Assembly: GCA_009780345.1 (NCBI GenBank)
Contig: WRAG01000020.1
Coordinates: 1-45,256 of the forward strand
DNA: 45,256 nt
Reading direction: 5' to 3'
Source of the DNA: Oscillospiraceae bacterium
Lineage (GTDB): Bacteria; Bacillota; Clostridia; Monoglobales; WRAG01
Numbering within the stretch: the stretch's first letter is position 1; each line of letters starts with the position of its first letter. A model generated the notes under the pieces. That model was not told the DNA's origin and made no database searches. It was given only the letters and a program-made list of their open reading frames with translations. The position numbers and the translations under genes were made by a program. This document shows, piece after piece, positions 11,436 to 30,620 of the stretch.

Positions 11436-11512
11436 ATAATAATGTAAATGTATAAGCATATATAAATTTTGATATGATAAGTCGTTTATGTCCATATCCA
11501 GGAGGTTTAAAA

Positions 11513-14500
11513 ATGAAAATTAGAACAAAAGTACTATCTTTGCTGCTTATTTTCTCGATTGCGTTAACGCTTGTGCCGATGATTGGCGCAAGCCCTGTTT
11601 TTGCGTCGATGAATGTTAGCAGGTTTCCGCAAACGTTTGTAGGTCTTGACTTTGTCGGCAACCAAAACACCGCGCCCGCAACTTCGGGCAACAATGCGCC
11701 GAGTAATCAAAGCGCCGTTCTTGACGGCAGGGTTCTTGACGGTGTTTTCGACGGTGCCAACGGGAATCGGCATAGATTATTCTTTATGACGTTTGATTTG
11801 GCGGATTTGACAGGTAATTTTGACGACATATATTCAATCAACCTCGGAATACACACAAGCGGGGATCCTGTGAACAACAATGACAGCCAATTTAACGTAT
11901 ATCTTTTTACACCCGAGCTTGCGGCGCGGATTAACCAAACCGACATACCGACTTATGGCGCGGCAAGGAATTTGGGTCTGGTTGACTATCGTAGCAATAT
12001 GATATGGAATCGGTCCGGCTTGACAATCAACACGGCGATAACTTCGCCTAATATACTACCGTATTTGCAAGATTATTTTACGCAAAACCCGAGCGAAACC
12101 ATTATCGGAGTTAAATTTTTCGGAACCAATTGGTTGGCTAATTTTCATAACCACCTCAATACCAATTCCGCATTAAGGCCGCAACTTATTGTCAACATGC
12201 CTGCGGAATTAAACACGCTTATCGACGCGAGCGAGATATTAAGCGAAGATATGCCGCGATTCATTTCCGAAAGCATAAATTTGTCGTCATCTATAGCAGG
12301 ATTTCCCGGCGTAACCGTTTCGTGGAGAAGTTTAAACCCGAGCGTGATAGACGATAACGGCACTCTTCTCTCGCCGCCGGAGGATAATAACGAACCGGTG
12401 GACGCAACGCTTGAAGCGACTATTAGTTTAGGCGGTGTTAACCGCGTTTTAACTTATACTGTAACTGTTTCATGCCGCAATATGATAGACTTCTTAACCG
12501 ATCTGACGACTTTGGATCTTGGAAACCTCGACGCAGTAACGGAAAATTTAACTCTGCCGTTGATATTAAGCGGAGTTCCCGTTCGTTGGGAATCTTCCAA
12601 TCCTGCCGTTATTTCAAACAGCGGAGTTGTAAACCGTCCTTACGCAATTGAGCAAAACGTGCAGGTTGAATTAACCGCATTCGGCGAATTTAGCGGTGTT
12701 CCTTTCAGTCATACTTTTGTTGCGACTGTTTTAAGACAAATCGGCGGAGCAGATGGTTTTCCGGCACTTTTAGATCCTATGCATATATCCGACCAAGCGT
12801 TTTTCGGGGTTTGGAACCCGGCGTTAAACGGCGGAGCGGGCGGTTGGGTTCCGCAGCAGGTTTTTCTTGCGCATTTGCCGAACAATCAATGGGTAACTTA
12901 TAATCGTCCGATATTAAGATACGATTTGTTTCCCGATCTTCGGTATGTTGAAGCCGCGGCACGTGCTGGAGATTATCCGCTGGCGAGAGAGTTGCTTTTG
13001 CAATACTACCGAACTCGCGACACCCAAGTTGTGCCGGCGTATCGAATTCCTGCGAACCGCCACGACTTGCGCGCTGAAATGTTCGGCGAAAAAATAGGCG
13101 GATGGATGGAAATTGACCCGCCAATGGGGCATACACATATTGGTCCCGACTGGGATTGGCATACAATCAACTTGAGTATGTCTCCCCGAAGTTCGACAAC
13201 CGTTTTTCTGCTTGACGCAGATATGTCGCCCGACAGGTCAGCGGTTGAAATTCGTAGTCGCGAATGGGGCAACGGAGAATACGCGGCATATTTAGCGCTT
13301 ACCGTTGCGGGCGAGAGGCGAACGTTTCCCGTTACTGCCGATATGTTTATAAGCGCGGGCGAGAATATTAATCGAAACTTTGGACAAGAGGAAATTTTGC
13401 TTGTGCGCGAAGCGGCGGGTCCGACCGAAACCGCGCCTGACGGAACGCCTATCCCTATGCCGTTCGGCTCATATACCGCGCGCCCGTATTTTCACTTTCA
13501 TATTCCGAATATCCCGGGGGGACAAAGCGTTACAAACGCGCAGCTTCGGATTTTTGCAAGAAGTAACAGCGGCGCGCCAAAGCGAGTTTTCGCTTTCCGC
13601 CCGCAAAGTCAGCAGGTAATCAATAACACTTTTAACGAAACCGGGTTCACATGGGCGCGGCATTTCCCGATAATGTTCAACTTTAAAGAAACAGGATATG
13701 TATGGCATTCTGCGATACAAAGCATGTGGAACTTGGAAATGGAATGGATTAACGGAATGACACGATTCTATCATGTTAATTCGTTGATTGAACGGTATCG
13801 GCGAACAGGCGAACAAATATTCGCATACCGCGCGTTGGAAAAAGCAATTTCACTTTATACGCAACAGCCATCATTCTCGTTCCCGCGGCGATTGGAGCCG
13901 GGGTGGCGTACTGAACACTTGAACACTTTGAAATTTGCAACTTTGAACAGCGAACTTATGACTCCGGAGCTTTGGACCGCGTTAATGAAATACAGCCATA
14001 GTCATGTAGCGCAAGGAGCGCTACAGAACGTTGGTGTTGGCGGCGCGTTTAATCAGGTTAACGCGCAACTTGTAGGCGCGTTCCGCACCATGGGATATTT
14101 CCCCGAAATACAAATCGCTACCGGTTGGGATGACGCGAAGAGAGGGGTTTACAACCTATATAATTTGCAAATCAATCCCGATGGAAGTTACGCTGAATCT
14201 ACCAGCGGATATATAGGCGGCGTTATAAACGAGCTTATAAACATGCTTGAACTGATAGCGAGGTTTGGCGATGACGAAAATGATCCTCTTTATGCCGCTA
14301 TGCTTGAGCATCTTAGAATGCTGACTCGATATTTCGTCGATTTGACAATGCCGCATAGACAAACAGTTCCGTGGGGTAGCGGAGGGCGAGGCAATCCGGT
14401 CGGAAGCGCGTATAATTGGTCTAATCGCTTCCCTGCCCTTGATCCGGACAGATTTTTTGAATACATTCATCGGAACGGCGCAAGCGGAACGCGGCCATAT

Positions 14501-16630
14501 TGGAATTCGGTGCTTTATCCATACAAAGCTATTGCGTTTTTGCGAAGCGGGTGGGGAACGCAAGATTTCGGCGCGATGATAAGCGCGACTCATGGCGGGT
14601 CGCACTCTCATCCCGACGATTTGGCTCTTGATGTCTCCGCATTCGGCAGATTCCTCTTGGTTGAGGCAGGCGGCGGTAGTTATGTCGCGGGCTCTAGCCT
14701 TGCGGGAATAAGCAACCAAACTTTCTCGCACAACACTATAGAAATTAATAGCGGAAACCAATTGCGCCACCCCGGAACAACTCAAATTAATCAGCCGCAA
14801 AAACTTTTGCTCGCTACAAACAGCATATTTGATTTTGTGGAAGCAGGTTCAAACAGAATTTGGGCAAGACATATTGACGATAACGGCAATGAAGTCAGCG
14901 GATTCGAAATTCACCGTAAAGTTTTGTTCGTTCATAACCGTTTTTGGATAGTTTCGGATTATATTTTCCCCGACGACAATTTGCCGCATAATTTTAGGCA
15001 AGTTTGGCGCCCCGACGCACGGAACTTCTTAGAGGTTGACCCGATTACCAAAGCGATGTCGACAAACTTTGGCGAAACAAGCGCGAACATTCAAGTTGTT
15101 CCCGCCGACCCTGAGGAAATCACCGCGAGAATCGACCGAAACTGGGGAACCAACCCGCAATTCGGCGAAGAAATCACCGATTTTGTGTCATACTTGCGTA
15201 CCGACCATGTCGGTCCCGCAACTTTTGACACCGTGCTTTTGCCCGACCCGGCAGGCGAGCGAACATATGTAAATGTTACGCGACTTCCGCTTGATGTTCC
15301 GGCGTATGTTGCGACTGCGCTTCAAATTGACATCGGCGTAAACGTTGGGTTTTACTATTCGGCGAACGATTTCGACCCCGGATTCCCGCCGCCGATTCCG
15401 AATCCGCCGTCAATTCCGCCGCCGGCTAATTGGTCGCGTCCGCCGTGGAATCGTCCGTCAATCCACACATTCCCGTTCCCGACGAGAACGTTTGGAAGAT
15501 TTACAACCGACGGGCAAATGGCTTACGTCGAGCTTGACGTGAATGACCGGCAGGCTATGGTTGCTCTAACCAAAGCGACCACGCTTATGCAGGACGATTT
15601 TGTGTTGGTTGAACTTGGCGAGCGAGTTTACGATTTAGGAATCATATGGAACGAACGAACGCTTGAATTGGCGAACGAAATCGGCACGCTTCCGGCAAGC
15701 GGCGTTAGAATTTTCTCTGACCGTATAATTGATCAGGTTTTCTTAAACGGTTCGCCGATTGCGTTCACTTTTGCAAACAATTACGTTTACATTAACCGCG
15801 AACCGACTCCGGTTTTGGAAGATGAAGACGAAGAAGAGTACGAAACCGGCAATGGCGACAATACGACGAGCAATAACCCGCCGAGCGACGACGTTCAGAA
15901 CGATCAAGGTTCGAATGAGACGAACACAGCTAACACGCCCGGCAACAGCGGCGGTTTGCCCGCAAGTGGCAACCCGCAGGTTAGCAATCCTGCGCAAGGT
16001 AATCGCCTGCCTATTATAGTCGCTTCAACTCCGTCCGGCAATGTGTACGGCATGCCTCCGATAGATTGGGCGTTTCGTGATACTAACGCACACTGGGCAA
16101 ACAGCGAGATAAGCAATATGCTCATACGTGGCGTTGTAACCGGGAACGATAACGGCTATTTCCTTCCCGATAACAATATCACCCGCGCGGAATTTACCGC
16201 GATTTTGGCAAGAGCGCTTGAACTTCCAAGCGCAAGCACCAATATGTTCACCGATGTGAGCGACGATGATTGGTTCGCTTCAGATATTGCGAGAGCATAT
16301 CAAGCGGGGATTATAGCAGGTTTCGACGATAGAAGTTTCCTGCCAAATAATACGATAACTCGTCAACAAATGGCGGTTATACTAATGCGAGCGCTCCAAA
16401 TTTTTGGATTTGAAAACGATAATTATGCAAATTTAATCTATTTCGCTGATCATTTAGTAATCGCCGAATGGGCAGTTGACGCGATTTCCGGCGCGGTTGG
16501 CGCGGAACTTATGACAGGATTTGATAATGGCGAATTCTCGCCTTTATCCCATGCGACACGCGCGCAGGCGACGGTTGTTATCGCGCGATTGCTTGGGCTG
16601 GCTGATACATCCGAAAGGGGGTTGATGTAA
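11513..16630 (+). CDS. SLH-anchored heparinase II/III-family polysaccharide lyase
   Basis: A very large exported enzyme (1705 residues). In order: signal peptide (1 to about 33); an N-terminal beta-sandwich-like module (about 36-230) shared with the dockerin protein at 30890; two Ig-like domains of the atrophied bacterial Ig type (about 230-410, VSWRSLNPSVID and VRWESSNPAVIS); a heparinase II/III catalytic region (about 420-1270) with the C-terminal domain motif HGGSHSHPDD (His1027, His1031, His1033) and FSHNTIEIN; a proline-rich then acidic/Asn-rich linker; and three SLH repeats (about 1519-1702). Lyases of this group cleave uronic-acid polysaccharides by beta-elimination, but the substrate is not readable. 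AGGAGG precedes the ATG. It overlaps functionally with the next gene, whose ATG follows the stop at once. Confidence 0.9.
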   Translation: MKIRTKVLSLLLIFSIALTLVPMIGASPVFASMNVSRFPQTFVGLDFVGNQNTAPATSGNNAPSNQSAVLDGRVLDGVFDGANGNRHRLFFMTFDLADLTGNFDDIYSINLGIHTSGDPVNNNDSQFNVYLFTPELAARINQTDIPTYGAARNLGLVDYRSNMIWNRSGLTINTAITSPNILPYLQDYFTQNPSETIIGVKFFGTNWLANFHNHLNTNSALRPQLIVNMPAELNTLIDASEILSEDMPRFISESINLSSSIAGFPGVTVSWRSLNPSVIDDNGTLLSPPEDNNEPVDATLEATISLGGVNRVLTYTVTVSCRNMIDFLTDLTTLDLGNLDAVTENLTLPLILSGVPVRWESSNPAVISNSGVVNRPYAIEQNVQVELTAFGEFSGVPFSHTFVATVLRQIGGADGFPALLDPMHISDQAFFGVWNPALNGGAGGWVPQQVFLAHLPNNQWVTYNRPILRYDLFPDLRYVEAAARAGDYPLARELLLQYYRTRDTQVVPAYRIPANRHDLRAEMFGEKIGGWMEIDPPMGHTHIGPDWDWHTINLSMSPRSSTTVFLLDADMSPDRSAVEIRSREWGNGEYAAYLALTVAGERRTFPVTADMFISAGENINRNFGQEEILLVREAAGPTETAPDGTPIPMPFGSYTARPYFHFHIPNIPGGQSVTNAQLRIFARSNSGAPKRVFAFRPQSQQVINNTFNETGFTWARHFPIMFNFKETGYVWHSAIQSMWNLEMEWINGMTRFYHVNSLIERYRRTGEQIFAYRALEKAISLYTQQPSFSFPRRLEPGWRTEHLNTLKFATLNSELMTPELWTALMKYSHSHVAQGALQNVGVGGAFNQVNAQLVGAFRTMGYFPEIQIATGWDDAKRGVYNLYNLQINPDGSYAESTSGYIGGVINELINMLELIARFGDDENDPLYAAMLEHLRMLTRYFVDLTMPHRQTVPWGSGGRGNPVGSAYNWSNRFPALDPDRFFEYIHRNGASGTRPYWNSVLYPYKAIAFLRSGWGTQDFGAMISATHGGSHSHPDDLALDVSAFGRFLLVEAGGGSYVAGSSLAGISNQTFSHNTIEINSGNQLRHPGTTQINQPQKLLLATNSIFDFVEAGSNRIWARHIDDNGNEVSGFEIHRKVLFVHNRFWIVSDYIFPDDNLPHNFRQVWRPDARNFLEVDPITKAMSTNFGETSANIQVVPADPEEITARIDRNWGTNPQFGEEITDFVSYLRTDHVGPATFDTVLLPDPAGERTYVNVTRLPLDVPAYVATALQIDIGVNVGFYYSANDFDPGFPPPIPNPPSIPPPANWSRPPWNRPSIHTFPFPTRTFGRFTTDGQMAYVELDVNDRQAMVALTKATTLMQDDFVLVELGERVYDLGIIWNERTLELANEIGTLPASGVRIFSDRIIDQVFLNGSPIAFTFANNYVYINREPTPVLEDEDEEEYETGNGDNTTSNNPPSDDVQNDQGSNETNTANTPGNSGGLPASGNPQVSNPAQGNRLPIIVASTPSGNVYGMPPIDWAFRDTNAHWANSEISNMLIRGVVTGNDNGYFLPDNNITRAEFTAILARALELPSASTNMFTDVSDDDWFASDIARAYQAGIIAGFDDRSFLPNNTITRQQMAVILMRALQIFGFENDNYANLIYFADHLVIAEWAVDAISGAVGAELMTGFDNGEFSPLSHATRAQATVVIARLLGLADTSERGLM

Positions 16631-19501
16631 ATGAGGAAGTTTATCGCTTTAATCATCACATTCACGATGGTTTGCTCGTTTATGCTCAGCATTCCCACTA
16701 CTGCAATGCCGGACGCGACGCCGGGCGTGGAAAACCCCGATTGGTTGTGGGACACCGTGCGGCTTGAACACGGTACATTTACGCGTGAAAGCAGTTCGCC
16801 TCAAGGAAGAGCGCTATTGTTTATCGACGGCGGAGGCGGAGGCGGAATGGCAATAAGGGAATCGTGGTTACGATTCGAGTTTGACGATTTTATAACGCGC
16901 TCGGCAAACGGCGATATCAATATCGAAGAGCTTAGGCTTAAAATAAACCTTAACGAAGTGGTAACGCATCTTCCTATCGGCATTTACGTTATGCCTCCAA
17001 GAATGGCGTCGTTTGATTACCGAACTTTGGACGGCGTCGGCGTTCAAGAAGTTATCTACGGTGGAGTTAGCACCATGAGAAACGATGTAACCTATTTGGT
17101 CGGGCAGTTTACGCCGCGATTAAGCGGGCCATTGCTTACCGGCGATATATGGCCGGGCGTTCAAGCGTTTTTGGAAAGATATCCAAACGAAACCGGCATA
17201 ACCATAAGATTATCGAAGTTGTATACTTTTTTCAACCCTAATGGAACGGCAATTACCAATCAAGGTTCGCGAACCACTATATCTTTTAGAGGTATGACAA
17301 GACTTCCTGGCGAGCCGATTTTACGATTCGGATATATCGACGACGCAATCAGACGAGTAAACGCCGCGATAAGCGAGTTTAACATGATAAACACGACAAA
17401 CGACGAAGATTCGCAAAATGTCACTCGTCCGCGAATTTGGCCGACAACTTGGCATAACGGCGTCGCGATAAGCTGGCATTCGTCGAGTCCAAGTGTGATA
17501 GATCCGACGACAGGCGTTGTAAACCGTCCGGCGTTTGGTACGGGCGATCGAGATGTTACGCTTACCGCAACGTTTTCGTATGAACGTGCGCCGAATGTTT
17601 ATCATACAGAGCAACTAACGTTTGATTTAACCGTCCTCGCCTACCGCGCGAATCCTGCGCACGCAGGGTTTACGATTCCGACCTATCTTCTTAGTTTTGG
17701 TCCGACGGTTTTCACATTAAATGCTGACGTGTCAAATATTTTGAATAATGCAAGCAATATAGATTCGGCATGGTTAAGATTAGTGCCTATAAATAGATTT
17801 AATGTTGGTGACGAGGTTAATATAACCATTGACGGCGTTTCTTTCATAGGGCAACTTGACGATTCGGGCAGTATTTATTTGGGCGACATTCTCCCCGCGC
17901 TTGTCGCGGCAGGAAATAATACAACAGTTATTTCGGTTTATCCGGCTCTTAGATTCCGCGCTCCTTTCATAAACGTAACATACGACCTGCGTCCCGCGAT
18001 AATCGCGCCGACACGACAAGATGCGGTAAATATGACAGCGGACTTTATTACTGCCGAAGCAATTGACGCATTCGATGTTAACCGAGTGCGCGGCGACCTA
18101 AATCTGTTCACATCGTGGCGATATAACGCGACAATTTCGTGGGAGTCAAGCCGACATGACATTATCGACCCGCTAACAGGCGAGCTGACCCGTCCGGATG
18201 AAGATACGCCGGTTACGCTTACCGCGACCGTTACGTCCGGCGGCGTTTCAACAACAGTAACCATAAACGTTATCGCTTTCGGGCTTAATTCCGATCGCGC
18301 TCACTTCGAATATCTATTCGACAATTTAACATTCCCTCGAATGGTGGAAACGAACAACTTCACGCTTCCGACCGTGATTCCGGGAACGCAATTCGCTCTT
18401 ACTTGGGTGTCCGAAAACCCGCGGCTCGCGGCAGTTAGCAGCGGTTCAGGCGATTTTGTCAATGTTTCAATTACCCGCCCGGGTCATAGCGATCAGGATG
18501 CGATACTTACCGCAACCATTGATGACGGCGCGATTGTAAGCCGCGATTTCCACTTCACAATCGTTCGGCGCGGCGGTCATAATTTGTTCTTTAACCGAAA
18601 CGTAATTGACGACGACGCGAACAACACAAAACGCGCGGCAATTCATGAAAATTTGGATTTCACATGGCAAATCAATGGCAACGATCGAACGATTTCAATC
18701 GACACCCAGCGTTCGAGAGCGTTTTCCGAATTTTTAGTGGTATTCGAGGGTGCTGAAACGACAGGGCTACGAATATATTCATCAGAAAACGCGAACACGT
18801 GGACGAATATTTTCACAAGCGGCGTGATTTTGCCGAACAAAGCGAATTTGTTTGTATGGGAAAGCCCGATTTCCGCGCGATATGTGCGATTCGTGTTCCC
18901 CGCGAACGTTGACGCGGTAAACTTTATCGGTGGTTTCGCGCCTGCTGAAGGAATGATAAATCATCAGATGATTTTCGATCTAATCACCGTTCCCGACAGG
19001 ATTACCGCCGACTTTGCTTTGGATACCGAATTTTTTGATATTCCTGTCGTGTGGCGTTCAAGCCGCCCGGCGGTTGTTCGAATTGACGGCGACCGGGCAA
19101 GATTTACGTTAACTGACACATTGGATAACTTTGTAACCCTTACGGCGACGGTTAATATCGGCGGCAATGTACGAAGTATAAGCTTCGAACGTCCGTTTGA
19201 CACACTTTATCGGAACGACATTGGCGTTACTCTTGAAACCATCTATGATTTAGACGAGTTGAGCTTTGAAACAAGCCTTCCGAACGGAATGGTTGTTCAG
19301 CCTATAATTTCTATTTTCGGCGCAAACGATAGGTTTATAGGGTTTTATCTTCCGGACCAAGTCGTGGTAGAAAATGAAATGATAACGTTTGATATGCCGC
19401 CGCTCGTCGGAACTCTTGATGGCGCAACGCACGGACAGATAAAGCTTTTCAACAACCTTGCCGAGATGGTTCCGCTGGATAATCCGTTAAGATTTAGATA
19501 A
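16631..19501 (+). CDS. Large secreted Ig-like/discoidin-like partner of the lyase
   Basis: A 956-residue exported protein with signal peptide (1 to about 25) and no anchor. An N-terminal module (about 30-215) resembles the DNRLRE-like sandwich. Four Ig-like domains of the atrophied bacterial Ig type follow (about 233-336, 458-550, 553-645 and 776-860; recurring pattern ISWHSSSPSVIDP, ISWESSRHDIIDP, VVWRSSRPAVV). An F5/8 type C (discoidin)-like domain lies between the last two (about 648-773, SEFLVVFEGAETTGLRIY and ARYVRFVFP), suggesting glycan binding. The ATG lies directly after the lyase stop, so translation is coupled and the two proteins are probably made in fixed ratio. Function is inferred: a non-catalytic substrate-binding or adhesion protein. 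Confidence 0.82.
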   Translation: MRKFIALIITFTMVCSFMLSIPTTAMPDATPGVENPDWLWDTVRLEHGTFTRESSSPQGRALLFIDGGGGGGMAIRESWLRFEFDDFITRSANGDINIEELRLKINLNEVVTHLPIGIYVMPPRMASFDYRTLDGVGVQEVIYGGVSTMRNDVTYLVGQFTPRLSGPLLTGDIWPGVQAFLERYPNETGITIRLSKLYTFFNPNGTAITNQGSRTTISFRGMTRLPGEPILRFGYIDDAIRRVNAAISEFNMINTTNDEDSQNVTRPRIWPTTWHNGVAISWHSSSPSVIDPTTGVVNRPAFGTGDRDVTLTATFSYERAPNVYHTEQLTFDLTVLAYRANPAHAGFTIPTYLLSFGPTVFTLNADVSNILNNASNIDSAWLRLVPINRFNVGDEVNITIDGVSFIGQLDDSGSIYLGDILPALVAAGNNTTVISVYPALRFRAPFINVTYDLRPAIIAPTRQDAVNMTADFITAEAIDAFDVNRVRGDLNLFTSWRYNATISWESSRHDIIDPLTGELTRPDEDTPVTLTATVTSGGVSTTVTINVIAFGLNSDRAHFEYLFDNLTFPRMVETNNFTLPTVIPGTQFALTWVSENPRLAAVSSGSGDFVNVSITRPGHSDQDAILTATIDDGAIVSRDFHFTIVRRGGHNLFFNRNVIDDDANNTKRAAIHENLDFTWQINGNDRTISIDTQRSRAFSEFLVVFEGAETTGLRIYSSENANTWTNIFTSGVILPNKANLFVWESPISARYVRFVFPANVDAVNFIGGFAPAEGMINHQMIFDLITVPDRITADFALDTEFFDIPVVWRSSRPAVVRIDGDRARFTLTDTLDNFVTLTATVNIGGNVRSISFERPFDTLYRNDIGVTLETIYDLDELSFETSLPNGMVVQPIISIFGANDRFIGFYLPDQVVVENEMITFDMPPLVGTLDGATHGQIKLFNNLAEMVPLDNPLRFR

Positions 19502-21851: not shown

Positions 21852-23543
21852 TTAATTAAGTTTTGTCCAAACTTCGGGAGCGGCGGCGTTTGCCCGTTCT
21901 TGGAAATCATGACCGTTTGCCGCCTCCATAATTTCGTAAAACGCCCAATAGGAATCGTCCAAATCAATAAACTGCGTAAGCTCCGAGCGGCGGGCGTTTA
22001 CGAAGTTCACGTCAGCCGAGCGGTTTAACATTCGGTTGACCACCGTCACAACTTCGGCGCGGATAATATTATTATCAGGGCGGAAAGTGCTGTTGGGATA
22101 GCCTTCCATCCAGCCGCTGCCGGCGACGAACGCGATATATCGGTTTGCCCAGTGATCGCTCGGAACGTCGGAGAAATCGATAGTCGAACCGTCAGTCATT
22201 CTTTCAAAGCGGCTCGCAATGACGGCGAATTCCGCTCGTGTGATCGGCTGATCGGCGCGGAAAGTTCCGTCTTGGTATCCGTTAATAATTCCGAACCGTT
22301 CCATAAAGCCGATTTGGTTGTAATACCACGCGATGGGTGTCACATCGCTGAACGAATTTGTATAAACCTCATTTTCGTCAATCGTTTCGGTCATAAGCCT
22401 TGAAAACATTACCGTAACTTCCGCTCTTGTCATGTTTGCCGTCGGGCGGAATGTGCCGTCCGGGAAGCCGAGCATATAAGCGAAATGAACCTCTCTGTTC
22501 AGCGGCGGCGGAAGCGGAATACGAGGAGGTTGCTGTTGCTGCGGCGGACGAGGAGGATCCGCGGTTTCGCTTGCGCTAAACGTCCAAGCCACTTGCCCAA
22601 CTACGTTTTGGAATTCGTCGCCCGCTTCGGGATGAATCGTAATTTCAACAGTGAAAGTTTGGGTTTGACCTTTGGCGAAAACACCCAAACTGAAAGGTTC
22701 GGATAGCGAACTTGGCGCACCTAGCACGCTTCCGTTAAAGATTATATCACCGTTTCGGCTTCGTATGATGATTTTAGAATATTGCTCCATTAAAGTTCGC
22801 GCAAGCGCGTCGTTGGAATCTTGAAGCGTCGCCCTTATATAGATTTCCGCCGAAGTTGAGGCCGAATTGGCTATGCGCATTTCCTGCATACGAGTTTCAC
22901 CCGGAACCATATTGCGGAACGCCTCGAAGAAGTTAGACGAAACCGTAAATTGCGCGGATTGGCTCACGTATGTCACCGTCACGGCGGCGAAAATCGGGAT
23001 TTCCGGCGGTGTTATGCCAAGGTCGGAGTGATTCAGTCCCCAAAGATAGCTTATCGCGTTCCCCGCCGCTTGAATACATTCAAGTTGAACGCTTAAATCC
23101 AGTTGGCGATTGCGATATTGGTTGCTATTCGCCGCGATCATCTCGAAACTGCGGCTAAGCGGCGACGATTCTTCTTGCGGCTCAATTAATGCGGTGTAAT
23201 AAAAATAACCGTCAAGGTAAAGCCAATAATCGCTTTCGTAATTTATTTTGATATTATCCGCTGATAATGAATTGTCAAAGTTATCTCGCCAAAGCGTGTC
23301 GATTCTGACGCGGCCAAGCATGGGAACGGTTCCTGTGTTTCTTACGCTTACGACGTATTCAACGGGAACGCTCGGCTGAATTCGAGCAACATCGTCGGTT
23401 TGAATGATAATCTCGCCCGTCAAAACGGCGGTTTCAATTCGATTATTATCCTGCGCCGCATTAATCACCGCAAGGGAAACACCGCCGATTAGCAAAGCGG
23501 CGATTATGATAATACATAAGGTTTTTAAAGTTGTTTTTTTCAT
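21852..23543 (-). CDS. SLH-anchored TasA/CalY-like fibre anchor protein
   Basis: A 563-residue exported protein. N-terminal hydrophobic segment (about 5-30), then two beta-sandwich-type regions. The second (about 200-330) has the pattern MVPGETRMQEMRIANSAS, VFAKGQTQTFTVEI and FQNVVGQVAWTF, common in proteins encoded beside SipW. A proline-rich linker (PPRPPQQQQPPRIPLPPP) leads to three SLH repeats (FPDGTFRPTANMTRAEV, YQDGTFRADQPITRAEF, YPNSTFRPDNNIIRAEV). In relatives this position usually has an LPXTG or collagen-binding tail; here it has SLH. The ATG at 23543 is preceded by AGGTGAT and starts a few bases after the upstream stop, so the genes are coupled. Likely role: tethering the fibre to the cell wall. 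Confidence 0.82.
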   Translation of the reverse strand: MKKTTLKTLCIIIIAALLIGGVSLAVINAAQDNNRIETAVLTGEIIIQTDDVARIQPSVPVEYVVSVRNTGTVPMLGRVRIDTLWRDNFDNSLSADNIKINYESDYWLYLDGYFYYTALIEPQEESSPLSRSFEMIAANSNQYRNRQLDLSVQLECIQAAGNAISYLWGLNHSDLGITPPEIPIFAAVTVTYVSQSAQFTVSSNFFEAFRNMVPGETRMQEMRIANSASTSAEIYIRATLQDSNDALARTLMEQYSKIIIRSRNGDIIFNGSVLGAPSSLSEPFSLGVFAKGQTQTFTVEITIHPEAGDEFQNVVGQVAWTFSASETADPPRPPQQQQPPRIPLPPPLNREVHFAYMLGFPDGTFRPTANMTRAEVTVMFSRLMTETIDENEVYTNSFSDVTPIAWYYNQIGFMERFGIINGYQDGTFRADQPITRAEFAVIASRFERMTDGSTIDFSDVPSDHWANRYIAFVAGSGWMEGYPNSTFRPDNNIIRAEVVTVVNRMLNRSADVNFVNARRSELTQFIDLDDSYWAFYEIMEAANGHDFQERANAAAPEVWTKLN

Positions 23544-23552
23544 ATTAATCAC

Positions 23553-24170
23553 CTATTGCGCCGTTTGGTGTAGCGCGGAGAACGCTTCCTGCGGGCTGTT
23601 TTCAAATCCCGCGGACTGAACCGCCTGCGCGGATACAATAATCTTGAAATCGCCGATTTGTTTGATTTTTGTCGGCGTCCAATCGGCGGGGACGGTCATG
23701 CTTGTGAACAAAACCTGCGGTCCGTCCGACGCGCTTAAAATATAGTTGTAGTTGTAGTAACGAACCCCCGCAAGATCATCGCTGAACTCGGTATCTAACG
23801 TGAAATTCGGGTTTATATCGTCTATTATGCTCCAAATTGCTGCCGCATTGCTACCTGCAATGGGATTGCCGCTTGCGTCTTGCAGGACAAGCTCAATTCG
23901 CGCCCAACAGTCGTCTAAAAGCGACTCGATTGTGGGATCGTTTTGGATAACCCGCCCCGGATATAGGTCGGTCGCAATTCCTACAGGATGGTTCAAATCC
24001 CACAAAGGCTGGCTAAGCACGATTTCAACGCCGTCGCCCATTGTGAAAGTATTTGTCGCGTTTTGACGATTGGTAAAGAACGCCCATGCGCCCAAGGCGA
24101 CAAGAGCAACCACCAACATCAGCGAAATAGTAATGAATATTCTTTTTTTGTGTGATTTAAGAAGTTTCAT
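23553..24170 (-). CDS. TasA/CalY-like (SipW-dependent) secreted subunit, third
   Basis: A 205-residue exported protein. The N-terminus KSHKKRIFITISLMLVVALVALGAWAFFTNRQNATNTFTMG is the SipW-type signal peptide layout: basic start, hydrophobic core, then AxF-TNR and N-TFTxG after the cleavage site. The rest is a predicted beta-sandwich (VEIVLSQPLW, CWARIELVLQ, FKIIVSAQAVQ). The ATG at 24170 is preceded by GGGATGA; upstream in-frame codons run through the intercistronic hairpin and are rejected. It lies between the major subunit gene and the SLH anchor gene and overlaps the latter's leader. Probably a minor fibre or adaptor subunit. Confidence 0.8.
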   Translation of the reverse strand: MKLLKSHKKRIFITISLMLVVALVALGAWAFFTNRQNATNTFTMGDGVEIVLSQPLWDLNHPVGIATDLYPGRVIQNDPTIESLLDDCWARIELVLQDASGNPIAGSNAAAIWSIIDDINPNFTLDTEFSDDLAGVRYYNYNYILSASDGPQVLFTSMTVPADWTPTKIKQIGDFKIIVSAQAVQSAGFENSPQEAFSALHQTAQ

Positions 24171-24220
24171 AATATCATCCCAATCGTATGGCAAGAGCGT
24201 TTCCGATGTTATGCGCTGAT

Positions 24221-24262
24221 TTTGCGACAGGCGGTACCAAATAGTACCGCCTGTCGCGCAAA
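24221..24262 (-). promoter_or_regulatory. Intercistronic hairpin after the main subunit gene
   Basis: A perfect 14-bp stem (GCGACAGGCGGTAC / GTACCGCCTGTCGC, 6-nt loop), extended by TTTGC/GCAAA past a 2-nt bulge. No T-run follows. It lies between the subunit gene 24305-25054 and the next gene, so it is a candidate processing or 3'-stabilising structure that makes the upstream subunit more abundant. Confidence 0.7.
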
Positions 24263-24304
24263 TCATGTTATTTGTCAAATGTTAAAATTTGTGTATGTAA
24301 TTTA

Positions 24305-25054
24305 TTATGGAGTCACCACGGGGAACAACGCCGCCAACGCGTCATATGTGCCGGAATCATTTATACCAAGTGGGAAACTGTCAACGTCAACCGCCGCGGC
24401 CTCAATTTTAATATTAAATCCACCGCCCGCGACAACATCTCTGAATATTTGTGTTCCGACTAGATTTTCCGAAATTGTAAGGCCGGAAAACAGCTCGGTT
24501 GTAGCTACTGTCGGCGCAACCGCTCCGTTACTGGCTCCACCGGTATAAAAGTAAGTTGAAACCGCGGTTGCGGGTGCAGGCGTAGTTGTGTCGGCGATAA
24601 AGGTTCCTAATCCTGCGTCCAAACCATCCCAATCCGCAGGGGATACAAGATCGCTGACAATATTAAGTCCGCTAAACGTAATATACGCTTGAAGATCGTT
24701 AACTTGTTGATCGCTCATTACCGTGCCGTCGCCGAATACCCAAGTAAGACGCACCGCCGTATAAACGTCAATAGCTCCCTCAGTTGTCGTGTTTCTAACC
24801 ACCGGATCTTTGTCGATAGCCTGGTCTCCGTTAGCTACTAAGTTGATATTTGTCGCGCTCGTTTCGCCTGTGGCATCCCATGCCGGCTCTTCAATTGCGA
24901 TGGTGATTACTCCGTCGGTTGTAAAGGTAAATGTGTTTTCTCTTACGTCGGTGGCGGTGAAAAGCGCCAAGGTTCCGGCAATCGCCAAGGCAGCCACCAG
25001 GATTAGCGATAGTATGCTAATCAAATTTTTCTTTTTCATTCTCGTTTTCGTCAT
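24305..25054 (-). CDS. TasA/CalY-like (SipW-dependent) secreted subunit, probably the major one
   Basis: A 249-residue exported protein. SipW-type signal: KKKNLISILSLILVAALAIAGTLALFTATDVRENTFTFTT, with the ALFT and N-TFTxG pattern typical of TasA/camelysin. The mature part is Thr/Val/Ala-rich beta structure (VITIAIEEPAWD, VYTAVRLTWVFGDG, FNIKIEAAAVDV). AGGAGG with ideal spacing makes this the strongest ribosome binding site in the operon, and a stable hairpin follows the gene. Both suggest high expression and a major fibre subunit. It is the second of three subunits downstream of sipW. TasA forms amyloid-like or donor-strand fibres in Bacillus biofilms; the same is inferred here. Confidence 0.82.
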   Translation of the reverse strand: MTKTRMKKKNLISILSLILVAALAIAGTLALFTATDVRENTFTFTTDGVITIAIEEPAWDATGETSATNINLVANGDQAIDKDPVVRNTTTEGAIDVYTAVRLTWVFGDGTVMSDQQVNDLQAYITFSGLNIVSDLVSPADWDGLDAGLGTFIADTTTPAPATAVSTYFYTGGASNGAVAPTVATTELFSGLTISENLVGTQIFRDVVAGGGFNIKIEAAAVDVDSFPLGINDSGTYDALAALFPVVTP

Positions 25055-25132
25055 CTTTAGTTCCTCCTTTGTTTGGATGTGTTAGACAATCTTTTTTTAT
25101 TTTCATGTTAATATAACCGTAATTGAAATGAA

Positions 25133-25783
25133 TTAGGGGACAGATAATCCCCACTCTGACGCGTCGGCGACATCTATCGCGTCGGCAAGCACTTCGATTG
25201 TAAATGTTTTGCCGTCATAATTTCCCGAGCTGTTGTCAAGCGTTGCGCCTTGGAATAGGTTAAGAGTGGTTTGCCCGCGACTTAGCGGGTTGTTGTAGTA
25301 AAAGAAATCGTCGCTGAAGTTCCAATAACTGCTCCAATTCGCGTTTAGATAGATTGTTAGGTCGCCAAGCTGCCACGTGCTTGCCGTGCTGCTCGGCGGA
25401 ACGGTGATATCGCCCATATTGACGGCGGCAACGCTGCCGTCGGCATTGTATACAACCGGCACAAGCATAACTCGGACATAAGCGTCAACTTCAAAACCGT
25501 CGGCACCTAATTGCAAAGCAACATACTTCGTATTCGCGCCCCACAAAACTACTCCGTCGGGAGCGGGCTTCTGCCCAAGCTCGTCGACGATGTAAACGTT
25601 CACGTCGGAATCATCGGCGAATGTAAAGCTGTTGGACACGGGATTCGCAACCGCTGAGAAAAACGTCGCCGCCGCAACGGTAAGCAACGTGAAAATAAGA
25701 ACGCCGTATGTTACCAAAACGCCGAGGCTTACCCTTGAACCTAGAAACAATATTCTCTTTTTAAAGATAATTTTCACATTCAT
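25133..25783 (-). CDS. TasA/CalY-like secreted subunit, first after sipW
   Basis: About 216 residues, exported. N-terminal basic region, hydrophobic core (SLGVLVTYGVLIFTLLTVAA) and then ATFFSAVANPVSNSFTFADD, again the SipW-type cleavage layout with N-SFTF. The mature part is beta-rich (VALQLGADGFEVDAYVRVML, LTIYLNANWSSYW, FTIEVLADAIDV). The gene start overlaps the end of sipW by about 20 bp, indicating coupled translation. The start codon is uncertain: ATG 25783 is used; GTG at 25774 is an alternative. Compared with the next subunit its signal region is atypical, and it may play the part of TapA, the fibre initiator, in Bacillus. Confidence 0.75.
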   Translation of the reverse strand: MNVKIIFKKRILFLGSRVSLGVLVTYGVLIFTLLTVAAATFFSAVANPVSNSFTFADDSDVNVYIVDELGQKPAPDGVVLWGANTKYVALQLGADGFEVDAYVRVMLVPVVYNADGSVAAVNMGDITVPPSSTASTWQLGDLTIYLNANWSSYWNFSDDFFYYNNPLSRGQTTLNLFQGATLDNSSGNYDGKTFTIEVLADAIDVADASEWGLSVP

Positions 25784-26282
25784 CACTCACTTTGTTTCTC
25801 TTTAAGTAGGAAATCAAATTCATAAGTATTATGAAAATCAATATTGCGCAAATAACGGCGACCTGACCGTGAAACGTTGTAAGCGGCATAAGAGCCAGTC
25901 CTAATCTGGGTACGGAGAACGCCACCACGCCGATTACGTTGTTATAGCTGATTGGTCGAGCGTCGGGGTTAGGATTGTTATCTCCTTGCGTTAAAAACGC
26001 ACGATTTTCGGCGTCAATTCCGATTACTCGGTGGGTAACAATTGTACCCTGAGAGTTAATGGCGTATGTAATGCTGTCATCCACCCGAATGTCGTCAAAG
26101 CTGGTCGGCCTAACGTAAATCAAATCACCCACGCCGTAAGTCGGTAGCATAGAACCCGTACGAATAGTATACATCCGTATTCCTCTAAATTGTGGAATAA
26201 TTACCATCGCAATCGCCGCGATCAAAGCCAAAATCACAATCCATGAAACAACTTTGCCGATAATTGTTAAACTTTTTTTCAT
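25761..26282 (-). CDS. sipW: SipW-type signal peptidase I
   Basis: A 173-residue membrane protease. An N-terminal transmembrane segment (about 13-31) is followed by the nucleophile Ser44 in RTGSMLPTYGVGDL, then IVTHRVIGID with His84 where ordinary bacterial type I peptidases have Lys. The Ser-His pairing marks the ER/archaeal-like SipW class. TQGDNNPNPD is the conserved box, and a C-terminal transmembrane segment (about 137-160) follows. AAAGGAG precedes the ATG. It sits 14 nt after the RCC1 gene and overlaps the first subunit gene. In Bacillus SipW processes TasA and TapA, so the three or four downstream proteins are its likely substrates. Confidence 0.93.
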   Translation of the reverse strand: MKKSLTIIGKVVSWIVILALIAAIAMVIIPQFRGIRMYTIRTGSMLPTYGVGDLIYVRPTSFDDIRVDDSITYAINSQGTIVTHRVIGIDAENRAFLTQGDNNPNPDARPISYNNVIGVVAFSVPRLGLALMPLTTFHGQVAVICAILIFIILMNLISYLKRNKVSDECENYL

Positions 26283-26296
26283 AATCGCACTCTCCT

Positions 26297-28189
26297 TTAA
26301 GGTGTCGGGCTGCTCAAACCCGTAATCATAGTGTTTACAATACGATCTTTGCCGCTTAAAGCGGTTGAATTCGTATTTTCGCTGATAAACGTCACCTCTA
26401 CGGGACTTGTCGTATCGGAATTGCTAATATTTACCGTGACAACCGCTTCGGAAGAAGCGATTAGTTGATACCGCCAGTTGTTTTCCATCGCGGTTACGGT
26501 ATATGTGCCTAAATCGTTGATTGAAACCCCTTGGCTTGCGGTTGTGTTACCCGCTCCGATAAGGATTGTGGCGTAAAAGATGTTGCCGCCGTCCGATTCA
26601 ATCTGAAATACAAAACTTTCGTTCTCATTGGCGGGAGCTTCCAGCGTTTGCGTAATTTCGATAACCGCCTGCCACACCATCACCGTTGCAACGTTTGATG
26701 TGATCGACGCCGCAACGCCACTGGGGTCGCTGATTACTACGTAGTAAAAATATGTTCCCTCTGTAAGGTTAGTTGGAATGGTAAATGTAGCGCCAATCGC
26801 GCCGCTAATCGCAATCGGATTCGTGCGGTTAACGTCGGTGGCTTGATACCATTGATATACAACGCTCGCACCTAATGTTTCCCTCGCGTCTACCGATATT
26901 GTCTCGGCGGCGGATTGCCCCGCGGCAATCATGGCGTCTTCGGGTTGGGCATAAATGGCGATGGTGCGCAAAATCACGCTTGGAACATTGACGTAATCGC
27001 CCGTGTTTGTGTCGCCGTTACCGATTTGAAGCACGCCGTTACTTCCCATCATCCAAAGACTTCCGTCCGCTTTGACTGCCGCCGAGTGATACCAACCAGC
27101 TGACACTTTGATCCAGTTCGTATCATTGTTGACTTGTTGCGGAGTAGTGTAAGTAACATTCGAGTTTGTCGCGCCGAGGCCACACCAACCCTCTGTGTCC
27201 GTTCCCCAGCCATAGAGATGTCCGTCCGCCGTAACCGCCATGGTGTGTGTTTGCGCCCCTGATACGTCGATCCAATTGCTTCCCGCGCCGATTTGCACGG
27301 GTACGGTGCTGTTGCTTGTGTTGCCGTTTCCAAGCTGATATTGCCCGTTGCCGCCCCACGTCCAAAGCGAGCCGCTGTGATCTGATATTGTGGCGCCGTT
27401 GCGAGTTCCGCGAATCCCCGCGGAGTGATAACATCCTGCCGACACACTTACCCAGTCGTTGTATGTGCCAACCTGTGTAGGAACGCTTAGGTTGCTGGTG
27501 CTATTTTGTTGTCCAAGCTGTCCTGAAGCATTGAATCCCCAAGCCCAAAGGCTGCCGTCTTGTTTAATTGCCAAAGTGTGCCCGCCGTCATATCCGGGCG
27601 CGTATCCTGACCAAAACCCGCCCCCCGCAACGCTTTCCCAGTTGTAATCGGTGCCGACTTGCATAGGAACGGTGTTATCGCCCGACCGTCCGAGCTGCCC
27701 TTGCCCGTTATAGCCCCACGACCAAAGGGAGCCGTCGCTCTTAAGTGCGAGCGAGTGAACCGAACCCGCCGCAACGGCAATCCAGTTCGTGTCACTACCA
27801 ACTTGCATAGGAACGGTGTTATCCCCCGAGCGTCCAAGCTGATTTTGTCCGTTATAGCCCCACGACCAAAGAGTGCCGTCATTCAAAACAGCGAGCGAAT
27901 GATGTCCGCCCGCCGATACCCAAATCCATGGGCCGGCAGGACCGTTCGGCGTGATCATTACCGCGCTGTTGTTTGTATTTCCGTTGCCCAGCCTGCCGTT
28001 GGCGTTACCGCCCCACGCCCAAAGCGTGCCGTCGTTCCGTATCATAAGCGTATGATTGTTTCCCGCCGAAACCATAAATACCGCTCCCGAAGACAAAGTG
28101 ATTAACGATGAAGTTCCGAGCGGAATAAGTATTACAATCATGCAGATGACAAGTATTATATTAATATATTTCTTCGTTCGTTTTTTCAT
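26297..28189 (-). CDS. Exported RCC1-repeat propeller protein with SpaA/Cna-B-like end
   Basis: A 630-residue exported protein and the first gene of the fibre operon. Signal or anchor segment at about 8-35. Then about seven RCC1 repeats (about 40-385): the pattern VSAGGHHSLAVLNDGTLWSWG recurs with GQLG and VPMQVG, giving a seven-bladed beta-propeller. An Ig-like region follows (about 390-500), then a prealbumin-like domain (about 505-630; FVFQIESDGGNIFYATI, LGTYTVTAMENNWRY, SGKDRIVNTM). That last domain is common in SipW-associated surface proteins, but the usual LPXTG tail is missing. The ATG at 28189 follows GGGGGA; the 55 upstream in-frame codons read through the leader and are rejected. 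It may be a tip adhesin. Confidence 0.82.
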   Translation of the reverse strand: MKKRTKKYINIILVICMIVILIPLGTSSLITLSSGAVFMVSAGNNHTLMIRNDGTLWAWGGNANGRLGNGNTNNSAVMITPNGPAGPWIWVSAGGHHSLAVLNDGTLWSWGYNGQNQLGRSGDNTVPMQVGSDTNWIAVAAGSVHSLALKSDGSLWSWGYNGQGQLGRSGDNTVPMQVGTDYNWESVAGGGFWSGYAPGYDGGHTLAIKQDGSLWAWGFNASGQLGQQNSTSNLSVPTQVGTYNDWVSVSAGCYHSAGIRGTRNGATISDHSGSLWTWGGNGQYQLGNGNTSNSTVPVQIGAGSNWIDVSGAQTHTMAVTADGHLYGWGTDTEGWCGLGATNSNVTYTTPQQVNNDTNWIKVSAGWYHSAAVKADGSLWMMGSNGVLQIGNGDTNTGDYVNVPSVILRTIAIYAQPEDAMIAAGQSAAETISVDARETLGASVVYQWYQATDVNRTNPIAISGAIGATFTIPTNLTEGTYFYYVVISDPSGVAASITSNVATVMVWQAVIEITQTLEAPANENESFVFQIESDGGNIFYATILIGAGNTTASQGVSINDLGTYTVTAMENNWRYQLIASSEAVVTVNISNSDTTSPVEVTFISENTNSTALSGKDRIVNTMITGLSSPTP

Positions 28190-28472
28190 AGGAATTCCCC
28201 CATGACAGTGTCTCAATTGATTTACAAATACAACCTCTTTGCAATCTACATTGGGGACAAGATTTCTGAAATAGGACATTAAAAATACCGCAGGGGTTTG
28301 CGCGGTTTGTTGTCCTTGCCGTGCAAATCGAGTCTTTTCGGCGGCGTACGGCATGTGCCTGTGATTATTTTGAAAATGAACGGTTTTATACTAAACATCA
28401 CTTGTTAAAAGCCTGTAAACCATTAATTTTATTGGGGTGGTTCGAAAGTGGTGTAAAACAGCCTAACCATAA

Positions 28473-28527
28473 AGAAATACCTATTGATTTCTGAACCTTT
28501 TGGGTTCGGATATCAATAGGTATTTTA
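28473..28527 (-). terminator. Long terminator hairpin
   Basis: AAATACCTATTGAT (28475-28488) pairs with ATCAATAGGTATTT (28512-28525), with a nested CTGAACC/GGGTTCGG stem. It lies 27 bp after the second stop (28554) of the interrupted cohesin-like gene and so favours 28554 as the original gene end. Confidence 0.75.
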
Positions 28528-28553
28528 GTATATTTCCTTATTTTCAACATTTT

Positions 28554-28670: not shown

Positions 28671-29426
28671 TCACCGCTCAACTTCCTGCGCCGATATAAG
28701 CATTTCACCGTCAAACCTTGCAGCGATAAGTATTACAGAGCGCGACTGATTCGTATTATTCATCAGATCAAACGAAATTCGCCCGTCATTCGTTAAAGCA
28801 ATATAAGGCACAGTAAATCCGTTGTGAATCGGAAGCAGCGGCGATTTAATTGTAACCGCGCCGATATTTCCGCCGTTCGTAAGCGTAATATCCAAAGGAA
28901 CCGAAGCGCCGGGAATAATCGCGCGCGGAACATCTGCACCGACACCGGTTGCAAAAGCCATATTTATTTCATCCGTGGTCATATTTTCCGCAGTTGCTGA
29001 CACTCGGAATGTAAGCGTTACTAAATCTGTGTTTAGAACCGTAAAGTTTGACATTCTTCCCCAACTCGCGAACGCATGTATAGGACCGACTATCGGATTT
29101 TCAAAATATCCGAATAAAGAATATTGCTCAGGAACCCAATCTTGAGGTCCCGTTCTAAATGACGCGCCGCCCAAGTTGGCGTGTCCAAGCTCTAACCTTA
29201 TTAATTCCAATCCATCAGGCACAAAAATTCTGAGAGGCAACGCTGCGAAACCCGTGTTGCCCGCAATACTTAAGGTAATTGAAAATTCTTCGCCACGCTG
29301 AAGCGTTCTGTCGGGCAGCTCGCTCGCACTTATCGTGCCATTTTCGCCCGCAACAACAACCTGCGTCGAATGAATCGGCGCAAGCGTAAGAACAAATATT
29401 AAAATGAGCATTAACCGTCTTTTCAT
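28671..29426 (-). CDS. Secreted cohesin-like protein, cut short by in-frame TGA
   Basis: 251 residues as read. Signal peptide (about 1-26). A cohesin-like beta-sandwich follows (about 30-185): LPDRTLQRGEEFSITLSI, then LRIFVPDGLELIRLELG, then DLVTLTFRVSATAENM. The end (about 205-251) is the first half of a module of the VAxYDxDG...FLWD type (SVILIAARFDGEMLIS). The frame continues for 38 conserved codons past the TGA to a TAA at 28554. AAAAGGAG precedes the ATG. It starts 15 nt after the scaffoldin gene stop, so it is the second gene of that operon. Either a recent nonsense mutation, or a readthrough product. No anchor or dockerin is visible. Confidence 0.75.
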   Translation of the reverse strand: MKRRLMLILIFVLTLAPIHSTQVVVAGENGTISASELPDRTLQRGEEFSITLSIAGNTGFAALPLRIFVPDGLELIRLELGHANLGGASFRTGPQDWVPEQYSLFGYFENPIVGPIHAFASWGRMSNFTVLNTDLVTLTFRVSATAENMTTDEINMAFATGVGADVPRAIIPGASVPLDITLTNGGNIGAVTIKSPLLPIHNGFTVPYIALTNDGRISFDLMNNTNQSRSVILIAARFDGEMLISAQEVER

Positions 29427-29441
29427 TCGTAAAAACTCCTT

Positions 29442-30578
29442 TTATTCGCTTAAATAAAGCGTGAAAACGTGAAGTCTTATTAAAATCGCCGCGATTTCGC
29501 CGCGCTTCGCGGTATTTTGCGGAACATATTCTCTATCCATTATCAAGTCAACCGCTTCTCCGAAACTGCGATATAAAATCAACCCAATTTGCTCGCGTGT
29601 TATCAAAACGCCGGGCGCGAACAAATTATCGCCGACACCGTTGACAATTTCAAAATGCGCCATTATGTTGATATATGCCTCCGCCCAATGGTCGACTGTG
29701 TCATAAAAATATTCCCCTAAATTGTTAAAAGTTACAATCATTTCCGATCCAAACAAAAGCCTCCCAAACGCCGCGGAAAACTCCGCACGCGTAATCGAAC
29801 CGTTCGGTTGAAAAGTTCCGTCGGGATATCCCGCCATAACTCCCCAATCAATAACATACCGAATATAATCCTCGCTCCAATGCCCCGCCGCGTCAAACGG
29901 TAAAGGTGTAAAATGCAGTTCGGCTTCAGGGTTATGCGGCCACGGTCCATTCGGGAAATCAGGCGGTCTTGGTGGAAGCGGCGGTTGTGGTGGCATCGGC
30001 GGTCTTGGCGGTGTTGCGCCGTTATCGTTGCCGTTTTCGCTTCCATTTCCATTGCCGCCGTTATCGCCATTGCCGTCGTTCGGTTCATAACCGTTTACAA
30101 CATAAATTCCGCCGCTGTTTACCGTCCAATTTCTAATCGAAGCGCCGTCAAGACAATTCGCGTCGATATTGTCAGCGGTAATCTCCGCCAAACCGCTTTG
30201 CGCGTCGGCTAAAACGCGGAACTCTAAATAAAGCAAAACACCTGTTGAATCATCGCTAACCACGCCGAACCATAATGGTCTGAACGGACTTGAAATATTG
30301 GACAAATCTCCGAAAAGATCGAGCCACGGCAGAACGTCGCCTTGTGTGGCGCCCAAAAGCTCTAACCGCGTATCGTCGTATTCAATATCAAACCTTATTC
30401 CCGCCAATCCCGGATTCTGATCAAGCGAAACCGTAATAGTCACAACTTCGCCCGGTTCGGCGGCAGTTATTTGTTCAATATTTACAACAATTCCGTCGTC
30501 GGCAAAAACCGCAATGCTCGAAACCGAAACCAAAATCACCGCGCAAATCAATATGCTTAAAATTTTTCGTAAAGTCAT
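29442..30578 (-). CDS. Cohesin-SLH scaffoldin (cell-surface anchor)
   Basis: A 378-residue exported protein. Signal peptide (about 1-27). One cohesin domain (about 30-165): VNIEQITAAEPGEVVTITVSL, IRFDIEYDDTRLELLGATQG, VLLYLEFRVLADAQSGLAEI. A linker of Asn/Gly repeats and a proline-rich stretch follows (about 170-225). Two clear and one weaker SLH repeat end the protein (YPDGTFQPNGSITRAEF; DNLFAPGVLITREQI; C-terminal TAKRGEIAAILIRL). The ATG at 30578 is chosen because GGAG lies 7 nt upstream. The architecture is that of a minimal anchoring scaffoldin: it would hold one dockerin-bearing protein on the wall. The dockerin protein at 30890 and the partial one at 45079 are natural partners, though binding specificity cannot be read. 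Confidence 0.87.
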   Translation of the reverse strand: MTLRKILSILICAVILVSVSSIAVFADDGIVVNIEQITAAEPGEVVTITVSLDQNPGLAGIRFDIEYDDTRLELLGATQGDVLPWLDLFGDLSNISSPFRPLWFGVVSDDSTGVLLYLEFRVLADAQSGLAEITADNIDANCLDGASIRNWTVNSGGIYVVNGYEPNDGNGDNGGNGNGSENGNDNGATPPRPPMPPQPPLPPRPPDFPNGPWPHNPEAELHFTPLPFDAAGHWSEDYIRYVIDWGVMAGYPDGTFQPNGSITRAEFSAAFGRLLFGSEMIVTFNNLGEYFYDTVDHWAEAYINIMAHFEIVNGVGDNLFAPGVLITREQIGLILYRSFGEAVDLIMDREYVPQNTAKRGEIAAILIRLHVFTLYLSE

Positions 30579-30620
30579 AATCATTCTCCTAAATATGCCT
30601 AAATACACCGTAATATACTA

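Follow-up and report, generated by a model that had tools for sequence, protein, structure and literature searches.

What starts a TasA-type fibre, what stops it and what keeps it on the cell? These questions are raised by a locus in a stretch of 45,256 nucleotides (nt) of an Oscillospiraceae bacterium (assembly GCA_009780345.1, contig WRAG01000020.1), referred to below as the window, in which six minus-strand genes occupy positions 21852-28189. A preliminary description of this DNA, made from the sequence alone, had predicted an extracellular fibre operon composed of an RCC1-propeller protein, the signal peptidase SipW, three TasA-like subunits (sub1, sub2 and sub3) and a fourth subunit-like protein tethered by SLH repeats. 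All six open reading frames (ORFs) were confirmed at the predicted coordinates and their tight spacing holds, with +14 nt between the RCC1 gene and sipW, -26 nt (an overlap) between sipW and sub1, 78 nt between sub1 and sub2, 134 nt between sub2 and sub3 and 9 nt between sub3 and the SLH gene. The fibre type itself is already known from TasA, CalY and BsaA. Sequence comparison establishes the gene order, the homologies of the products, the replacement of an LPXTG signal by SLH repeats and the pattern of CsaB occurrence. We consider it probable that the locus is a SipW-dependent TasA/camelysin fibre operon, with an RCC1 adhesin at one end of the fibre and an SLH wall anchor at the other; polymerisation, polarity, docking of the adhesin tail and adhesive function are what we infer from these homologies.

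The prediction of a fibre operon is supported by the SipW family match, by SipW-dependent signals and by TasA-like profile matches. The putative SipW, in which S44 and H84 are invariant in the alignment, scored 66 bits with the Bacillus SipW equivalog NF046067, below its cut-off of 190, and is therefore best seen as a SipW relative outside the Bacillus equivalog group. Its gene is single-copy in the 2.05 Mb assembly (59 contigs), which contains two TIGR04088 signals only, those of sub2 (27.6 bits) and sub3 (25.9 bits; cut-off 19), in line with the claimed SipW dependence; sub1 and the SLH protein fall outside TIGR04088. A profile built from 132 SipW-type subunits of other genomes, window sequences excluded, was searched among 1550 proteins and matched all four subunit-like proteins (E 1.6e-11 to 9.9e-30), the SLH protein twice (9.9e-30). 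By these profiles, sub1, sub2, sub3 and the SLH protein are all TasA-type. A profile of alignment A4 reached B. subtilis TasA in the PDB (E 1.1e-5), with a match that covers chain residues 2-52 of the mature form; a single-sequence phmmer search of sub3 against PDB sequences found nothing, sub1 had no match in Pfam or NCBIfam, and scores of 15.5 and 12.9 with Pfam Peptidase_M73 lie under the cut-off of 22.5. The start codon of sub3 is most likely at 24170. Among the structures retrieved with an AlphaFold2 (AF2) model of sub2 (pLDDT 79.9), the TasA fibre 8aur came second (E 9.8e-3) and the Pyrobaculum bundling pilus sixth; this model-based match to TasA is supportive and not significant alone. 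The models obtained do not contradict the TasA-type fold for which the preliminary description had proposed structure prediction; the structural support for sub2 is moderate only. As that description had noted, sub2 has the best Shine-Dalgarno sequence of the operon (AAAGGAGG, read directly from the sequence) and is followed by a hairpin (z -6.1), a possible mRNA stabiliser in the spacer before sub3.

Related operons give this arrangement its context. A search of genome contigs with the window and L053 SipW sequences yielded no locus, and a closer set gave 33 named loci. In the sipW neighbourhoods surveyed, the order adhesin, sipW, subunits and TasA-like protein with LPXTG recurs in named Tissierellia/Clostridia records. 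The search for conserved gene order suggested at the outset thus has a divided outcome: the order is kept among relatives of the same class, and both RCC1 and SLH are missing from those that are close and syntenic. The window genome is the sole representative of its family among the genomes searched, and almost no genome of its taxonomic order has the system. In the SipW tree, the window belongs to a group of 17 supported at 99/92, a bootstrap not fully settled, together with L109, L114, L111, L112, L117 and L120.

The secreted RCC1 protein consists of a signal peptide, a seven-repeat RCC1 propeller, an Ig-like region and a C-terminal prealbumin-like module. It carries neither LPXTG nor SLH, and the TapA family is not among the Pfam and NCBIfam matches of this gene upstream of sipW. 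The earlier proposal that it replaces an LPXTG adhesin found no support: in syntenic relatives the adhesin upstream of sipW is itself devoid of LPXTG, and the signal is found on a separate TasA-like anchor encoded by the last gene. What the RCC1 protein shares with these adhesins is its last 115 residues, which match a module common to the adhesins of >20 SipW operons (E 1.9e-11). The module profile was built in three rounds, the window sequence being left out, and searched among 1550 proteins; the homology depends on this iteration, since the first round gave E 0.038 only. Nearly all members of the iterated profile are adhesins adjoining sipW, and an independent single-sequence phmmer search placed the L112 and L111 adhesins on top (E 1.6e-7 and 7.9e-7). 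Because the heads in this slot vary between vWA, DUF11 or GBS104-like domains while the module recurs, the head appears to have been exchanged and the module kept; as judged from these alignments, RCC1 replaces the head of the adhesin.

This module ends in a stretch that may take part in fibre assembly. In TasA fibres, mature residues 28-38 of one subunit enter the following one, held by the hydrophobic anchors F29, I32 and F39 (PMC9674648), and TapA donates its N-terminus likewise (PMC10151520). The mature subunits read W/Y-F-T-D-x5-N-x-F-T-x-G, whose ten-residue F-F spacing equals that of TasA. A donor matrix scored sub3, whose strand FFTNRQNATNTFTMG is the most canonical of the operon, at 29.5 bits, sub2 at 15.1 and sub1 at a weak 0.0. 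Several adhesins of relatives end in tails (WFYDDDRKDNHF, WFHDNDEKNNKF, WFYDEDEVINRF and WFSDSVDRINKF) closely resembling the N-terminal donor strand of TasA subunits. With a matrix of 15 columns, derived from 41 subunits (adhesins and window excluded), the C-terminal tail was the top-ranking position in 11 of 25 adhesins, which are related and do not represent independent events; with column-permuted matrices (300 trials) the tail came first in a mean of 1.9 and a maximum of 8 adhesins. A donor-like tail on every adhesin was rejected, the tail not being first in the other 14. The window tail ALSGKDRIVNTMITG outscores the tails of about 507 unrelated proteins, has a shuffle p of 0.003 and is a suggestive lead as a donor-strand mimic, weaker than in relatives. 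The RCC1 proteins of L173 and L174, tried as further examples, were not significant (shuffle p 0.09 and 0.10). At the opposite end of the operon, wall anchors have no recognisable donor strand: scores above 5 bits were reached by 2 of 26 LPXTG and 0 of 4 SLH anchors, compared with 69% of the subunits outside the training set. It is conceivable, though rather unlikely, that the RCC1 protein remains outside the fibre as a separate secreted binding or enzyme-like protein co-expressed with a TasA-type matrix operon. The genome does contain three further RCC1 loci beyond the operon, and the window tail match is weak on its own; the C-terminal module, however, is the one found at the extreme C-terminus of SipW-operon adhesins, and two SipW operons of an unrelated lineage encode RCC1 proteins.

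The other end of the proposed fibre is the SLH protein. The preliminary description had seen a CalY-like protein with three SLH repeats, of which the repeats and the TasA-like nature stand; there are two TasA-like domains instead of one. Domain 1 matched the 132-subunit profile at E 1.1e-20, and domain 2, over residues about 190-339, a profile of 22 LPXTG anchors at E 2.9e-19. The protein resembles the BsaA family TIGR04090 without qualifying for membership (44.1 bits, cut-off 60). When the full protein was used as query, SLH repeats alone were retrieved. Its nearest full homologues are proteins of 624-641 aa in L109 and L114 (BLASTP E 1e-39 and 1e-40), with about 29-30% identity over about 370 residues covering both TasA-like domains. 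Where these relatives have PPIPQTG, a membrane helix and a basic tail, the window protein has PPRPPQQQQPPRIPLPPPL followed by the three SLH repeats, the remainder being collinear; an LPXTG-type signal with membrane helix and positive tail is absent from all six operon proteins. On this alignment, SLH repeats replace the sortase signal while the protein backbone is conserved. Most other genomes encode the two TasA-like domains in separate genes (positions 2-168 of profile A6 match subunits, about 190-350 match anchors), and since the SLH repeats lie at the place of the sortase signal, the protein looks like a subunit-anchor fusion. The AF2 model of domain 2 is confident (pLDDT about 80-95), and its PDB fold matches are dominated by donor-strand filaments: the Sulfolobus thread 7pnb (1.8e-5), FimA (1.9e-5 and 5.7e-5), 7ueg, CS20 pili and FimG with donor peptide.

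CsaB pyruvylates the wall polymer that is bound by SLH repeats. The window genome encodes a CsaB (TIGR03609, 277 bits; cut-off 213); including it, CsaB is present in 4 of the 4 genomes with SLH anchors and in 0 of the 5 comparison genomes tested. Together with the homology to LPXTG anchors and the collinear relatives, this pattern favours the built-in SLH tether proposed in the preliminary description. Besides the window genome, a TasA-like N-terminal part with three SLH repeats lies beside sipW in G128 (L060), G595 (L167) and G753 (L182). Sortase is absent from these three genomes, present in all twelve other genomes tested and encoded three times in the window genome.

Taken together, these parts suggest the following course of assembly. 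Cleavage of the signal peptides by SipW would free the N-terminal donor strands of the TasA-like subunits, and the subunits would polymerise through donor-strand exchange as Bacillus TasA does. The RCC1 protein, filling the adhesin slot, would supply the first donor strand with its C-terminal tail and so start assembly; each complemented subunit would then present its own donor strand, until the acceptor-only SLH anchor takes the strand of the last subunit and ends the chain at the wall. There its SLH repeats would bind wall polymer pyruvylated by the CsaB of this genome, instead of the anchor relying on the sortase signal of its relatives. More tentatively, and with somewhat less than even confidence, we extend this scheme to many Clostridia SipW operons, which may encode polar, adhesin-tipped, wall-anchored donor-strand pili started by the adhesin tail and ended by an acceptor-only LPXTG or SLH anchor, both ends being exchangeable modules.

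Several observations weigh against this fibre model. The TasA pocket residues are, by eye, degenerate in sub1 and sub2, the E-value of the fold match between sub2 and TasA is above 1e-3, and AF2 prediction of the SLH-protein N-terminus yielded no model of domain 1. When the donor matrix is reversed, the tail still comes first in 7 of 25 adhesins, so that composition may explain part of the tail signal, and permuted matrices also rank the window tail first in 54 of 300 trials. As the window genome has three sortases, its SLH anchor was not forced by a missing sortase, an explanation rejected here and fitting the other three SLH-anchor genomes. The degenerate pockets, along with the presence of three clearly distinct subunits instead of one repeated, are also what would be expected if no long fibre were formed and the products assembled into a short, SipW-processed heteromeric surface complex in which adhesin, three subunits and anchor occur in fixed proportions, comparable to a minor pilus tip. 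Sequence cannot give copy number; the strongest ribosome binding site and the hairpin at sub2 are nevertheless expected of an abundant polymerising subunit, and C. perfringens sipW-bsaA likewise has a terminator after its major subunit (PMC7395162), which leaves the short complex unlikely. It is very improbable that the SLH protein is of the S-layer type, independent of the fibre, and carries TasA-like domains by chance, for although the genome is rich in SLH proteins (at least 27 matches), the protein has a layout collinear with that of the sortase-anchored proteins which relatives encode at this place in the operon, and other SipW operons encode its two domains in separate genes.

The proposed anchored fibre can be set against known systems. 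Bacillus subtilis tapA-sipW-tasA shares SipW, TasA-like subunits, the mature N-terminal donor motif and a donor-giving partner just upstream of sipW; the window differs in having an RCC1 protein instead of TapA, a donor-like tail that is C-terminal and not N-terminal, three subunits and a dedicated SLH wall anchor. Clostridium perfringens sipW-bsaABCRSD resembles it in combining SipW with a TasA/BsaA-type subunit and in the terminator-like hairpin after the main subunit, whereas no SLH anchor is described there and the window lacks two-component genes; BsaA polymers were reported to lie mainly outside the cell and not to be firmly attached to the wall (PMC7395162). The Tissierellia/Clostridia LPXTG operons (L106/L123, L110/L124, L053, L126 and L127) are alike in order, adhesin C-terminal module, subunits and anchor domain and differ in their vWA or DUF11-type adhesins, LPXTG-type anchor and fewer subunits. 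The operons with two-domain anchors (L109, L114, L105 and L118; family f20) contain the best homologues of sub3 and of both SLH-protein domains, with another adhesin and, in place of SLH, a sortase signal followed by an in-frame TasA-like domain. L060, L167 and L182 share sipW, SipW-type subunits and the TasA-like part joined to three SLH repeats, this part being shorter (about 200 residues); they have no RCC1 protein, and their SipW lie apart from that of the window on separate branches. One further genome, G661, encodes RCC1 proteins within two SipW operons (L173 and L174), and its SipW, too, branches separately from that of the window.

Among the open-access papers searched, which do not include most subscription titles, no prior description of SLH-tethered or RCC1-capped SipW fibres was found, nor any of adhesins from SipW operons with donor-like tails at the C-terminus; this does not prove that none exists. 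The locus bears on the initiation, termination and surface retention of TasA-type fibres, and the comparison offers a concrete model with identified parts: a donor-like tail, subunits with donor and acceptor, and an acceptor-only anchor. It points to a wall-anchoring chemistry swapped from sortase signal to SLH on a conserved backbone and, if the model is true, to a sortase-free route to tethered, adhesin-bearing pili in Gram-positive-type bacteria.

Table 1. Positions in the window of the genes, domains and RNA features of the putative fibre operon
Feature	Position	Strand	Basis
Adhesin-like secreted protein, 630 aa	26297..28189	-	Pfam RCC1/WD40_RLD E 7e-91
C-terminal module of the RCC1 protein, residues about 511-625	26315..26659	-	three-round profile E 1.9e-11
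Tail ALSGKDRIVNTMITG, candidate donor-strand mimic	26318..26362	-	donor matrix rank 1/674
sipW, SipW/ER-type signal peptidase	25761..26282	-	TIGR02228 93.7 bits (cut-off 51.85); GSM serine, THR histidine
Subunit 1, TasA-like; start overlaps sipW end	25133..25786	-	132-subunit profile E 1.6e-11
Subunit 2, TasA-like, strong Shine-Dalgarno	24305..25054	-	TIGR04088 over cut-off; subunit profile E 4.1e-21
Intercistronic hairpin, 15 bp stem, no U tract	24224..24257	-	RNA fold -38.2 kcal/mol for 24190-24310, z -6.1
Subunit 3, TasA-like	23553..24170	-	TIGR04088 over cut-off; subunit profile E 3e-26
Wall anchor, 563 aa: two TasA-like domains, proline-rich linker, three SLH repeats	21852..23543	-	SLH E 4e-33
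Anchor domain 2, residues about 186-335	22539..22988	-	homologue of stand-alone LPXTG wall-anchor domain
Three SLH repeats at the place of the relatives' sortase signal	21864..22496	-	SLH E 4e-33; alignment to relatives
Probable terminator: hairpin then T-rich stretch	28477..28523	-	RNA fold z -5.8 for 28455-28550

Some features of the related operons are worth recording in their own right. In L109:5937-7811, L114:7762-9687, L118:6896-8779 and L105:6536-8419, an anchor with a sortase-type signal and membrane helix is followed in frame by another SipW-type signal and TasA-like domain, an arrangement read directly in L109 and L114; such single ORFs are apparent polyproteins, which SipW might cut internally. 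In L060:7044-8311, two different tandem sipW genes stand by one subunit set and an SLH anchor. The two G661 operons (L173:6132-13137 and L174:6383-13454) are paralogous and each ends in an RCC1 protein of 1261-1299 aa. The RCC1-repeat loci elsewhere in the window genome are at C16:42187-43062, C5:10445-11407 and C8:38799-39638, in frames of 2508, 743 and 392 aa.

The hairpin upstream of the RCC1 gene is a probable terminator parting the fibre operon from upstream cohesin/SLH genes. This upstream pair (29442-30608 and 28671-29426) encodes a protein with a cohesin-type match (E 8e-9) and SLH repeats, and a secreted neighbour that has no family match. Elsewhere in the window, a large surface protein encoded on the plus strand (11474-16630) combines a heparinase II/III-like region with CBM96, Ig and three SLH repeats and adjoins the gene of an Ig-rich surface protein with an F5/8-type domain (16631-19501, plus strand), and a protein of 1070 aa joins a subtilase to DUF285 repeats (38463-41675).

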